Assembly: GCA_029938515.1 (NCBI GenBank)
Contig: JAOZUU010000103.1
Coordinates: 1 to 8,211 of the forward strand
Direction: 5' to 3'
DNA length: 8,211 nucleotides
From: Desulfobacterales bacterium
Lineage (GTDB): Bacteria > Desulfobacterota > Desulfobacteria > Desulfobacterales > QNYZ01
Of this stretch, positions 5,412-8,138 are shown in pieces. The notes beneath the pieces were generated by a model that worked only from the letters and a program-made list of their open reading frames with translations, did not search any database and was not told where the DNA came from. Made by a program: the position numbers and the translations under genes. Positions within the stretch are counted from its first letter, which is position 1. The number at the start of each line of letters is the position of its first letter.

Positions 5412-5532
5412 CTATTTCTTCATTTGTTTCTCAAGTTTCATTTTTCGTGCCTTAAATTCATTCAACTTCTTTTTTTGCCGTTACATCACTGAGTGTTGCC
5501 CCTTTGCGATTCCATTCACCGTATTCTGCCAT
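5412..5532 (-). pseudogene. Small conserved protein ('MAEYGEWN' family) with its middle deleted
   Basis: ATG 5532 reads MAEYGEWNRKGATLSDVTAK, which I recognise as the start of a small conserved hypothetical protein of roughly 100 residues in related bacteria. After KKEVE it stops at 5458. In the next frame the same DNA reads KKKLNEFKARKMKLEKQMKK and stops at TAG 5412-5414; this is the charged coiled-coil style in which that family ends. The two ends join at an A7 run near 5474, with a net one-base frame change, so the central part is gone. The likely event is a deletion through short poly-A homology. The TAG is 7 bases from the UPF0489 start, and that gene's ribosome binding site overlaps it. 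Function of the family is unknown to me. Confidence 0.62.
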
Positions 5533-5893
5533 ATTTTATCTCTGTGACCGAACCCCGCAGCCCCTCACGCTCAGCCAGCGACGCCATCACCTGCAAACTG
5601 TCCCCCAGAATCATGCGGTTGGTCCAATTGGCGGCGTGCTGGTAAAAATCGGTCGATCTGGCCGCGTCAGGCAACCCATTGAAATCGGCAAACAGATCCA
5701 TCTGTTTTGGGATACCAGCGGTTTCCTGCGCCTCGGTACGCCGAATCAGATCGTCAATCAAAACCTTGGGATGCACCTTCTCCTGGATATGGAGCGGCGA
5801 TGCCTGAACCACCAGATCGGACCAGTCCTGTTCGTCCTTGCCGCGCCAGACAAGCTGGGGATCCAGATCGCGGTTGCGGCGCTCGTAGGCCAC
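5516..5893 (-). pseudogene. N-terminal fragment of a site-specific DNA methyltransferase (type III-like mod)
   Basis: The 125-residue frame begins at GTG 5893 with VAYERRNRDLDPQLVW, then RGKDEQDWSDLVVQ, and later FADFNGLP and NRMILGDSLQVMASLAE. This is the N-terminal region of large adenine-specific methyltransferases that accompany BPTD_3080-type restriction enzymes. In intact members GLRG is soon followed by the catalytic DPPYG. Here homology ends at GLRG (5552-5554), followed by SVTEIKYGRIR and a stop, so the catalytic motif and several hundred residues are lost. The frame stays open upstream of 5893 (RATTTIP), where it runs into the four-helix-bundle remnant, so the 5' end may also be a junction. 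It cannot be an active methylase. Confidence 0.8.
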
Positions 5894-6052: not shown

Positions 6053-6338
6053 CATTTTTAAATTCATGGCACGATTGGCACGTTTATGGCGCGATTCATA
6101 ACATAATGAGCGCCACGCCTGGCCCTTTTGGCCCCATTATGGCCCCTTTTCCTATATTCCCGGCTTGATTACATATCCGGTCTCATTTCCATTCTGTTTT
6201 CGGATATTCCACAAATAATCATCAACATGTGCCATGAGCCCCTTCTTTCTGGCGAGCCCTTTAAGCCCTTTCCCCGCTCCGTTTAGTCAACATATAATGT
6301 ATATCAGCGATGGTGGCTGTGAAAGTGTTTGCATCGAA
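6053..6338. other. Gene-poor stretch with short minus-strand coding traces
   Basis: I see no normal gene here. On the minus strand a 27-residue frame from ATG 6235 reads MAHVDDYLWNIRKQNGNETG and ends in TAG at 6152, with AAGGGG close upstream. Overlapping it in another frame, a tail reads RGAHYVMNRAINVPIVP and stops at TGA 6064-6066. RGAHYVMN resembles the RGTYYTL-type ends of winged-helix ATPase genes such as the one at 6409-7851, so it may be the scrap end of a second copy. Both assignments are weak. The stretch also holds two of the spaced box arrays. Confidence 0.3.
6067..6150. repeat. Two arrays of three TGGC boxes with 9/11-base spacing
   Basis: On the + strand array 1 has TGGCACGAT (6067), TGGCACGTTTA (6076) and TGGCGCGATTC (6087). 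Array 2 has TGGCCCTTT (6120), TGGCCCCATTA (6129) and TGGCCCCTTTT (6140). In both, the box starts are 9 and then 11 bases apart, and the second unit ends in TTA or TTTA. Array 1 abuts the TGA at 6064-6066 of a possible gene tail. The same layout occurs twice more at 6339-6415. Confidence 0.7.
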
Positions 6339-6415
6339 TGTCCGATATGTCTGATAAATGTCCGATTCCCGATCTTCGCAAATATGTCCGAAATGTCGCA
6401 TAGATGTCCTATTTC
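6339..6415. repeat. Two arrays of three TGTC boxes with 9/11-base spacing
   Basis: On the + strand array 3 has TGTCCGATA (6339), TGTCTGATAAA (6348) and TGTCCGATTCC (6359). Array 4 has TGTCCGAAA (6385), TGTCGCATAGA (6394) and TGTCCTATTTC (6405). Spacing of starts is again 9 then 11, and the arrays are 46 bases apart. Array 4 begins on the stop codon of the DUF4062-ATPase gene (TAG 6409-6411), so both arrays form the immediate 3' flank of that gene. Confidence 0.75.
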
Positions 6416-7851
6416 TTTCGGAGTGTGTAGTAGGTGCCGCGCTTCTGCCCATTGCGACGAAGTACGCCCTTTTCCACAAGATAGGTCAGATCCCGAGTGG
6501 CGGTTCTCGGTTCCACGCCAATTTGTTCCTGGTACTCACCGCTAGTGATGCGACCGGTAGATTTCACATACCTGACAGCTTGCCGTTGTCTATGGGAAAG
6601 GCCAAGGCTTGCCATAACCTTATCTGTCAACCAGTCCCTCCAAAGTGTTACAACAAAATAAGGGCCGCGTTGCTCAAAATCGGGCTCGGGAAGCCCCGCT
6701 TTTCGGCAATCGGCAATCATATCTGTTGTGCCGGTTCCGGCTTTCTCCACATATTTAACCCGGAACAACGGCTCGGCAATCAATGGGTTTTGTGGTATCG
6801 GGCCATGAGGCTTGCGCAATAACTCAGGGGTAAGCCCGGGAGGCAGTTCACCGGGATTCCACACCTCGATGCGATCCGCAAAGACAATGACCTGGACAAA
6901 CCCGTTGTTTCGGTAATTTCGATGGGCAACCGCATTGACGATGGCCTCGGTGATAACAGGTATGGGGATCTCGAACTCAACGGGAGCCTGTATACTCGTC
7001 GCACGCGTCCCCACCCTTCGGTCGATCTTGCCAAGTACAAACTCTACCGCCTGATCGATTACTTCAAGCAGCCTTCCCTCATAGGGTTTCTGGGATGCAA
7101 TGGGTTTTCGTTTTTCCGTTCCATGGAAATGAAAGCAATGGACCTGTGCATTGTTGAAAAACCGGTGAGGATTTTTTCCGAACAAAAGCATGGCAGCGTT
7201 CGTGGGTCGGCCATCTCGCAGCAGGTTGAAATTTTTCAAAACAACTTTCGGAGTACGAGATCCTTTGAGCTTCAGCCGGCCCGCGGCTTCGGCCGTCTCA
7301 ACAAAATTTTTCACTTCAGTATTATCGATATCCCGGAGCGTTGCCCGATCACACACGCTACCGTCAAACGGTGTGGATATGATCATGCCACGATTCTCAA
7401 GACACTCAACGAGACTGGCATAAACTTCGCGGATCAGGCCGGGTGTATCTGAAAAACGGCGCCGGGTGACTTGGCGGCCTGCTCTGCGTACCAATTTGGC
7501 CATTTCCGGTTCACGCGCCTTGTCGTCACCACCCTTTACAAAGACCAAGCGTTCGCGATGGGCTTTCGTGGCGTGATCGAATTCCAACTCGGTCGGCGAT
7601 TTCCCGCCATCGTTTTTCCATCCATACTGGTTGCCAAAAATGGCAAGATAGATGTCGCACTGCGCGACCTCTCCCAGGTAAATATCATCAACTTTGCGGT
7701 CTCCGGCAGGAATATCTTCGAATAGAAACACATCAGCTATAAACCGACTCAGGAGTGGATCATGGGTGATGAAATCCTTCACCGCACGTCGCTGCGTAGC
7801 AAGTTCCTTTTGAACGCTACTGATAAATATTTTTAGATGAGTGGCGGGCAT
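6409..7851 (-). CDS. DUF4062 - GHKL-type ATPase (HATPase_c_4) - winged-helix protein
   Basis: An intact 480-residue cytoplasmic protein with three parts. Residues 6-150 form a DUF4062 domain: LKIFISSVQKEL (6-17), FEDIPA, CDIYLAIFGNQYGW (65-78), SPTELEFDHA (85-94). DUF4062 is a TIR/nucleoside-transferase-like fold common at the N-terminus of signalling and defence proteins. Residues 205-405 match the AlbA_2-associated RecG-like ATPase region: TNAAMLLFGKNP, the N-box TEAIVNAVAHRNY (301-313), IEVWNPGELPPG and EKAGTGTTDMI (369-379). Residues 410-480 are a winged helix, with recognition segment EPRTATRDLTYLVEKGVLRR. The usual AlbA_2/Schlafen domain is replaced by DUF4062. The ATG 7851 lies 5 bases after the stop of the restriction-enzyme fragment, suggesting translational coupling. 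Regulation or defence signalling is inferred; the ligand and target are unknown. Confidence 0.85.
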   Translation of the reverse strand: MPATHLKIFISSVQKELATQRRAVKDFITHDPLLSRFIADVFLFEDIPAGDRKVDDIYLGEVAQCDIYLAIFGNQYGWKNDGGKSPTELEFDHATKAHRERLVFVKGGDDKAREPEMAKLVRRAGRQVTRRRFSDTPGLIREVYASLVECLENRGMIISTPFDGSVCDRATLRDIDNTEVKNFVETAEAAGRLKLKGSRTPKVVLKNFNLLRDGRPTNAAMLLFGKNPHRFFNNAQVHCFHFHGTEKRKPIASQKPYEGRLLEVIDQAVEFVLGKIDRRVGTRATSIQAPVEFEIPIPVITEAIVNAVAHRNYRNNGFVQVIVFADRIEVWNPGELPPGLTPELLRKPHGPIPQNPLIAEPLFRVKYVEKAGTGTTDMIADCRKAGLPEPDFEQRGPYFVVTLWRDWLTDKVMASLGLSHRQRQAVRYVKSTGRITSGEYQEQIGVEPRTATRDLTYLVEKGVLRRNGQKRGTYYTLRKK

Positions 7852-7856
7852 CCTGG

Positions 7857-8138
7857 TTAAACCTTTCCGTTTAATGCCTGGTCGATCATTGGAATGGGAT
7901 TGTATTGTTGCTCCTCGGTTGAAAGCCCTTTGTCTTCATCGAAAGTCATGTCCAGTGGTTGTTGGATAGCTGATCCCTTGCGCTTCCTTGGCTTCGGAAC
8001 AGGTGTTATGAACGCTGCGCGGCGGCGGTTCTCGATAATCCGCTGCGTTGGTTGGCCTTGATCATCAAGCTCCCAGTGCCATGATGGGTATTCGTAAGGC
8101 GAGTTAAGGATAGGATGTTCGAAAAACCGATTATCCAT
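7857..8138 (-). pseudogene. N-terminal fragment of a BPTD_3080-type restriction endonuclease (type III-like res)
   Basis: A 93-residue frame begins MDNRFFEHPILNSPYEYPSW, then HWELDDQGQPTQRIIENRRR, FITPVPKPRKRK, and DEDKGLSTEEQQYNPIPMID. This is the N-terminus of large BPTD_3080-family restriction/helicase proteins, which are many hundreds of residues long. The frame ends soon after (QALNGKV, TAA 7857-7859), before any helicase Walker A or nuclease motif, so it is inactive. The ATG has GAGGAG 11 bases upstream. The DUF4062-ATPase starts 5 bases after the stop, and the methyltransferase fragment further downstream is the expected partner, so the set looks like a collapsed restriction-modification operon. 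The short peptide may still be translated and coupled to the next gene. Confidence 0.78.

Follow-up and report, generated by a model that had tools for sequence, protein, structure and literature searches.

Triplet direct-repeat arrays at the 3' end of winged-helix effector genes as likely sites for the encoded winged helix

Introduction

The C-terminal HTH of CccR, a Fic-HTH protein of Yersinia pseudotuberculosis, binds palindromes in its own promoter and represses its own gene, according to the available part of the report (PMC9755527). KpSwz, a Swarozyc protein, is described in the accessible sections as an antiphage DUF4062 NADase whose HTH/winged domain binds the phage portal (PMC13174449). 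At BREX loci, backup effectors consisting of a Schlafen RNase, a minimal histidine kinase and a wHTH have been reported (PMC12839542, in excerpt). BrxR, a WYL-type wHTH regulator of defence islands, has inverted repeats upstream of its gene (PMC9122601, in excerpt). A regulator on its own operator is a kind already known. In restriction-enzyme target-recognition-domain swapping and in CDI/Rhs tip swapping, a conserved body carries a hypervariable C-terminus that is swapped with its partner, and remnants are left downstream.

Here we describe arrays of short direct repeats in an 8,211-nt stretch of DNA (the window; contig JAOZUU010000103.1, assembly GCA_029938515.1, Desulfobacterales bacterium) and in relatives, whose loci are given by L numbers. 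The window contains a 480-aa gene (6409..7851, minus strand) with DUF4062, a middle region, HATPase_c_4 and a DeoR-like wHTH, as delineated by Pfam, a profile match to structure 10wc and an AlphaFold model.

Results

Domains of the window protein

The DUF4062 domain covers residues 7-94 (7570..7833, minus strand; Pfam E=1.1e-20) and is predicted to be a TIR-like NADase. The DUF4062 part matched the solved KpSwz structure 10wc over profile positions 4-193 (E=2.8e-8). E90 of the window protein, invariant in 12/12 aligned relatives, is aligned with an Ala of 10wc, which we provisionally take to be the E97A mutant of the catalytic Glu E97 of KpSwz. The match ends at chain residue 195 of 326. Like Swarozyc KpSwz, as described in the available text, the window protein thus has a DUF4062 TIR-like domain, predicted in our case; unlike KpSwz with its portal-binding C-terminus, it goes on into HATPase_c_4 and a DeoR-like wHTH (PMC13174449). 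The accessible part of that paper does not mention DNA repeats for Swarozyc.

The C-terminal wHTH spans residues 404-480 (6412..6642, minus strand; E=2.1e-33), with block pLDDT of 77-92 over residues 411-480. The AlphaFold model is good in the wHTH and poor in the middle (mean pLDDT 67.4). It reaches pLDDT 90-92 over residues 421-460, including the recognition helix (residues 448-460; 6472..6510, minus strand), whose covarying residues 448, 449, 452 and 453 are P, R, T and R. The best fold match of the model was 3lmm, with TM-scores of 0.26-0.31. Pfam found neither a Fic nor a WYL domain in this gene, and no Schlafen/AlbA_2 N-terminal domain, DUF4062 being given in that place.

Like the Schlafen-kinase-wHTH effectors in the excerpted account (PMC12839542), the window protein has HATPase_c_4 followed by a C-terminal wHTH and lies in a defence operon; unlike them, it carries DUF4062 in place of Schlafen. 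The SLFN_AlbA_2-HATPase_c_4 relatives with arrays (L125, L161) fit the described type. The repeat array is not mentioned in the available part of PMC12839542, and its main text contains neither 'DNA repeats' nor 'direct repeat'.

Four triplet arrays in the window

Four triplets of boxes, starting at 6067/6076/6087, 6120/6129/6140, 6339/6348/6359 and 6385/6394/6405, all have a spacing of 9 and then 11 bp; these triplets had been reported in a first-pass annotation, and each was recovered with its spacing. The steps of an array sum to 20 bp, about two helical turns. As that annotation had also stated, one array falls on the stop codon of the DUF4062-ATPase-winged-helix gene: the proximal own array (6385..6413, plus strand; TGTCCGA/TGTCGCA/TGTCCTA at 6385/6394/6405; score 16.8) overlaps the stop at 6409-6411 of this minus-strand gene. 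The distal own array (6339..6367, plus strand; TGTCCGA/TGTCTGA/TGTCCGA at 6339/6348/6359; score 18.8) is 46 bp away, the distance in relatives being most often 47-48 bp.

Two further arrays are orphans. The first (6120..6148, plus strand; score 20.5) has another specificity, TGGCCC[CT], and its box class is that of L069, L018 and L149; the second (6067..6095, plus strand; score 19.8) has a third specificity, TGGCACG. On visual inspection, a decayed array with AGCCC at 6237, 6255 and 6264 was seen at 6237..6268 (plus strand), and a possible, weak remnant of a wHTH end, RRGAHYVMNR, between both orphan arrays (6091..6120, minus strand). A relic tail of a similar gene had been suspected in this region. 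The resemblance of RRGAHYVMNR to a wHTH end, judged by eye, agrees with that suspicion, while the larger relic at 5516-5893 (minus strand) was recognized by PADLOC as a type III methyltransferase (MTase_III, E=1.2e-53) in truncated form.

Arrays were scored by a reward for TG in each box plus the agreement among boxes, and the four window arrays scored 16.8-20.5. A 1-Mb first-order Markov background gave 16 matches at a score of at least 16, both strands summed, so that about 0.006 would be expected per 349 bp, and four in that length are far beyond chance. Chance or composition as the source of the arrays is excluded by this background and by the rarity of other spacings (see below). In its own genome, which is about 72% complete, the loose TGKC pattern occurred at 10 places, the four window arrays and six others, and only the window arrays repeat the same box letters. 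An Rfam scan returned nothing at the gathering threshold.

The array accompanies one class of wHTH

To avoid circularity, the survey of relatives was restricted to loci retrieved through similarity of the protein or of the wHTH. Its first tier comprised 45 distinct wHTHs with E<1e-28, and the array was sought from -20 to +130 of the wHTH end. A 9/11 array lay 3' on the expected strand in 42 of these 45 genes (other strand, 1), while thirteen other spacings tried on the expected strand gave 0-7 of 45. The 11/9 reading of the other strand, found in 26, represents the same arrays reversed. The first-tier genes without a called array were L083, L090 and L235; by eye, L083 and L090 have boxes of the class expected from the helix, at another spacing or with unequal letters, and TGCCC boxes are present in L235. 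In the second tier (25 genes), the expected strand carried an array in 12 and the opposite strand in 11 (5 both, 7 neither), and again only steps of 9 and 11 were common. The weakest tier, 52 genes, gave 5 and 4, respectively. Because of the mixed strands and absences in the weaker tiers, orientation and presence of the array are not universal.

None of 17 HATPase_c_4 homologues with another C-terminus had a 9/11 array, in a set which, like that behind the start-position and second-array counts, includes loci fetched by array pattern. The array therefore tracks the wHTH class and not HATPase_c_4, and the proposal of a 3' companion of this gene family holds for genes with this wHTH (42/45, vs 0/17). 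Most of the nearest DUF4062-type relatives have the array directly 3', with other letters and the same 9/11 step; the exceptions are L083 (69% identical), L084 (contig end), and L015 and L016 (52-53%), and L016 (52%), in which no array was found, has an ORF that ends differently. The commonest array start is -1 relative to the wHTH end (18/44, pattern-fetched loci included). In 24/47 (again including pattern-fetched loci) there was a further array that agreed in its first three letters, mostly 47-48 bp away. From -250 to +60 of the first ATG, a 9/11 array was absent on either strand in all 37 testable genes (8 untestable).

Other N-terminal domains also occur with such wHTHs. SLFN_AlbA_2 replaces DUF4062 in L125, L161, L165 and L175, and Fic does so in L166, L167, L172 and L183 (Pfam). 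The SLFN_AlbA_2-HATPase_c_4 proteins L125 and L161 have the same wHTH, and arrays are present; by eye, repeats follow the gene in all eight loci, partly with other steps. Right 3' of the Fic genes, whose wHTH is related, direct repeats TGTCCCTTA, TGTCCTATA and TGTCACAG were seen by eye, so the association may extend past HATPase_c_4 proteins.

Several single observations were made during the survey. L160, L161, L162, L239, L247 and L248 share the helix SDEGARIDL or SDEGARKDL and CGCCAA-type repeats spaced by 9 and 11, some of which read on the opposite strand. Visual inspection revealed CCCGCACTAAT repeats after the SLFN_AlbA_2-HATPase_c_4 gene of L175, tandem 11-bp CCGGACATAAT repeats after L168, which Pfam assigns to the sigma-54-type response regulators and whose C-terminal wHTH is related, and, at a contig end (L138, 1-70), an AGCCC array 8 bp past the stop of a DUF1016-nuclease-like gene. 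One pattern scan of viral contigs gave 38 matches, with no relative confirmed.

Box letters follow the recognition helix

The box letters differ from gene to gene and largely agree inside one array. We used 45 wHTHs for a column-wise Mantel test and 41 wHTHs, none more than 90% identical to another, for nearest-neighbour prediction. Both sets include some pattern-fetched genes and omit genes without a called array, and the scripted box calls contain a few errors (L159 and L014, within the set of 45; the phase of L161). In the Mantel test, helix column 46 agreed best with the box (r=0.320), a value that none of 1000 permutations reached (highest, 0.293). Columns 45 (0.213), 49 (0.193) and 50 (0.184) were high, yet under the family-wise 95% line of 0.246, as was column 4 (0.221), which is probably a clade marker. 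Columns 45, 46, 49 and 50 correspond to residues 448, 449, 452 and 453, with which the recognition helix of the AlphaFold model begins.

When each box was predicted from the gene closest in these four residues, 3.59 of 5 letters agreed; the remainder of the wHTH gave 3.04 and random pairing 1.77, the four predictor columns having been chosen on largely the same genes. When wHTHs more than 55% identical were excluded, the four residues still gave 3.02 letters, the rest of the wHTH 1.67 and random pairs 1.77. At a 60% cut-off the observed value of 3.14 was reached in 0/500 permutations (mean 1.78, maximum 2.29). Eleven later-fetched genes gave 3.58 for the four residues, 2.95 for the rest of the wHTH, which was thus a good predictor here too, and 1.85 for random pairs. 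They are those with a called array among 22 wHTH ORFs not more than 90% identical to the earlier set; the 11 uncounted ORFs include L214, L223 and L250 (no alignable helix), L229 (the gene of L012), and L237, L238, L243, L247 and L248, whose boxes lie, by eye, mostly at 11-bp steps.

Residue-base rules were drawn up after inspection of the same 41 genes. Where column 50 is not R, N1 is C in 5/7, vs 0/34 with R (p=2.8e-5). With R50 present, a column 45 residue in DESNQ goes with N3=G in 10/10, vs 3/24 otherwise (p=2.2e-6), and a column 46 residue other than R/K with N1=A in 11/14, vs 1/20. Exceptions are L165, L161, L232, L246 and L087, the N1 letters of the last three being mixed. Prediction was poor for L244 and L239, perhaps owing to box phase. 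The strongest single coupling joins N1 to column 44, which immediately precedes the helix, and non-helix columns 70, 68, 69, 38, 60 and 2 are coupled to the box too. Judged by this covariation, the letters follow the recognition-helix residues of their own gene and not the gene body. The covariation supports the suggestion of the first-pass annotation that the array may be read by the gene's own winged helix. Its other suggestion, a protein tolerant of a changing core, does not fit letters that are largely uniform per array and track their own helix.

Since the array is translated in many genes (tails KQDINRTNRT, KGLIKGSKGS) and in 28/42 the reading frame ends only downstream of the nearest array, one could argue that the repeats encode a selected C-terminal peptide tail, the DNA pattern being secondary. 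We regard this as extremely improbable: the 11-bp step breaks the frame, the other 14/42 genes have their stop within the nearest array (7) or upstream of it (7), second arrays are often past the stop, and the letters follow a helix encoded about 75 nt upstream. As the sole cause, peptide coding is ruled out by the frame break and by arrays outside ORFs.

The window gene in an apparently decayed type III restriction operon

The window gene has a restriction-operon setting, flanked by a truncated type III mod and a res-like ORF. The former (5516..5893, minus strand) is the N-terminal part of a methyltransferase, and its homologue follows the arrays in L069, L070, L071, L075, L082 and L087; PADLOC identified the downstream ORFs of L070 and L082 as type III methyltransferases (E 0). 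The latter, a short ORF (7857..8138, minus strand) with an internally deleted look by eye, matches part of the upstream ORF in L069, L070, L071, L075 and L087 (61-67% identity). The upstream ORFs of L069, L070 and L071 were recognized, weakly, as type III restriction enzymes (PADLOC, best E 3e-7 to 3.4e-6). At least five relatives have the gene flanked by type III res and mod, and the window looks like a decayed type III operon, in which the res-like ORF is apparently deleted inside, mod is truncated and the effector gene is open. At other loci, type I or BREX-like restriction genes adjoin the gene (by eye). For L079, L127 and L128, the few adjacent ORFs listed include, by eye, no restriction gene, so that controlling a downstream methylase cannot be the general role.

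A type III methyltransferase being a frequent neighbour, the boxes might be its sites, with methylation sensed by the wHTH. This is very improbable. L069 and L070 share the methyltransferase specificity region (75-81% identical in windows where other covering pairs show 12-38%), but their boxes differ (GCCCC and AGCCC), and arrays also occur where no such neighbour was seen.

The wHTH and the array are apparently exchanged together

Body, wHTH and box were compared among 26 full-length DUF4062-type proteins (325 pairs). Identity of the body correlated with that of neither the wHTH (r=0.05) nor the box (r=0.00), whereas wHTH and box correlated with each other (r=0.53). In L077 and L080, the bodies are 95% identical, the wHTHs 41% identical, and no box letter is in common; at the wHTH boundary, marked by the codons for WRDWLT, their DNA identity of about 90% sharply gives way to about 45-55%. 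In L069/L071 and L070/L071, DNA identity is back to 70-85% past the arrays, at the start of the next gene. These comparisons suggest that wHTH and array are replaced jointly, apparently as one 3' cassette.

Arrays of other letters pile up downstream of some genes. L078 has seven arrays and L080 eight, the first two of each being the gene's own, and in L010 a wHTH fragment is kept beside an array of other letters. Such downstream arrays are probably leftovers of earlier cassettes. In the nine genomes inspected that contain two or four such genes, the boxes differ by eye within each; none of 14 within-genome pairs was alike, against a background of 7.9% of all pairs sharing at least four letters, a number of pairs too small to demonstrate selection for orthogonality.

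A separate stretch of about eight arrays of different letters in 600 bp was seen by eye in L039 (G041:C91, about 150-800), beside a Fic-like gene; no intact wHTH effector gene was seen there. L048, L026 and L090 are short ORFs fusing the DUF4062 start to the wHTH or the late body and look internally deleted; L048 and L026 are one genome place, where the array is retained. The gene and array island of L080, from a MAG labelled Syntrophoarchaeum, is nearly identical to that of L078, from a deltaproteobacterial MAG, which reflects either recent transfer or a binning error.

The sharp borders of cassette replacement, and array piles all in one orientation, would also fit arrays that serve recombination or targeting of the 3' cassette, the wHTH marking the next entry point rather than acting in regulation. 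We consider such a role quite improbable, as Pfam found no recombinase domain in the gene, homologous exchange via the conserved body needs no letter code read by a helix, and arrays are kept at loci without a pile.

Discussion

The array is likely the site for the wHTH encoded directly upstream, and wHTH and array apparently change hands as one 3' cassette; both readings come from comparison of sequences. Three wHTHs of the protein would sit side by side on one DNA face. Binding would be in cis, because the searches of regions upstream of the genes gave no array, and the rest of the window's own, incomplete genome gave none whose letters match. Once bound, the effector could then limit transcription through the 3' end of its gene and on into the one that follows, which in many cases is a methyltransferase or other restriction gene. 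Such operon control in cis would be the most likely consequence of array binding, given the lack of other sites and the analogy with CccR (PMC9755527) and BrxR (PMC9122601) as far as the available parts of these papers describe them. Private letter sets would prevent cross-talk of resident and incoming copies, which would account for the diversification of the letters.

The same observations bear on a different function, in which the array is a DNA antidote or tether. The effector, a predicted NADase here and Schlafen-type in relatives, would be kept inactive on the DNA and freed when the array is lost or occupied, and orphan arrays would be retained as immunity to formerly resident or neighbouring specificities. 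Polymorphic toxins retain orphan immunity genes. The array is tied to an effector-type protein whatever stands downstream, wHTH and array are replaced as a unit, and gene-less copies persist downstream (beyond the own two, five in L078 and six in L080). Six boxes, however, can hold few molecules, and conservation of orphan arrays is not demonstrable from the one close pair: L078 and L080 differ by eye at 7 places in the part they share, 5 of which fall within arrays, and are too similar for a conservation test, while L072/L062 are too rearranged to compare. We hold the antidote or tether function to be unlikely, but it is the chief competing reading and worth keeping in view. Rather unlikely, too, is its extension to a polymorphic system, in which defence effectors with interchangeable wHTHs would be kept harmless by a private DNA barcode at the 3' end of their own gene, helix and barcode would be exchanged jointly, and piles of old barcodes would serve as immunity to former or invading specificities. 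If that were true, the helix-to-barcode rules would amount to a readable protein-DNA code.

For the preferred reading, a site for the gene's own wHTH, the helix-box pairs (41 used) offer a natural series for a winged-helix recognition code. Defence islands may also be searched for such effectors with the array as a marker, and the array raises the testable question of how effectors in restriction operons are kept in check. Among the best-ranked papers of the literature covered, which mostly excludes subscription journals, we found no 3'-end operator of an effector gene in rigid 9/11 triplets whose letters vary by four helix residues and which appears to move with the wHTH as a cassette.

Compared with known systems, the locus resembles CccR, in the available account (PMC9755527), as an effector with a C-terminal HTH/wHTH and a site at its own gene, binding being predicted here. 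Unlike the promoter palindromes of CccR, the sites are direct-repeat triplets at the 3' end, with letters varying with the helix by gene, and near the gene start, where only 9/11 arrays were sought, they were found in 0/37 (PMC9755527, same part). The likeness to BrxR, as excerpted (PMC9122601), is that of a wHTH controlling defence genes from in-locus sites, one of them upstream of the next operon gene, such control being predicted here; unlike the window protein, BrxR has no effector domain, and no WYL domain was found in the window protein. The window arrays and those of relatives also recall the swapping systems named at the outset. In CDI/Rhs and target-recognition-domain swapping the partner is a protein; here the partner is a short DNA array.
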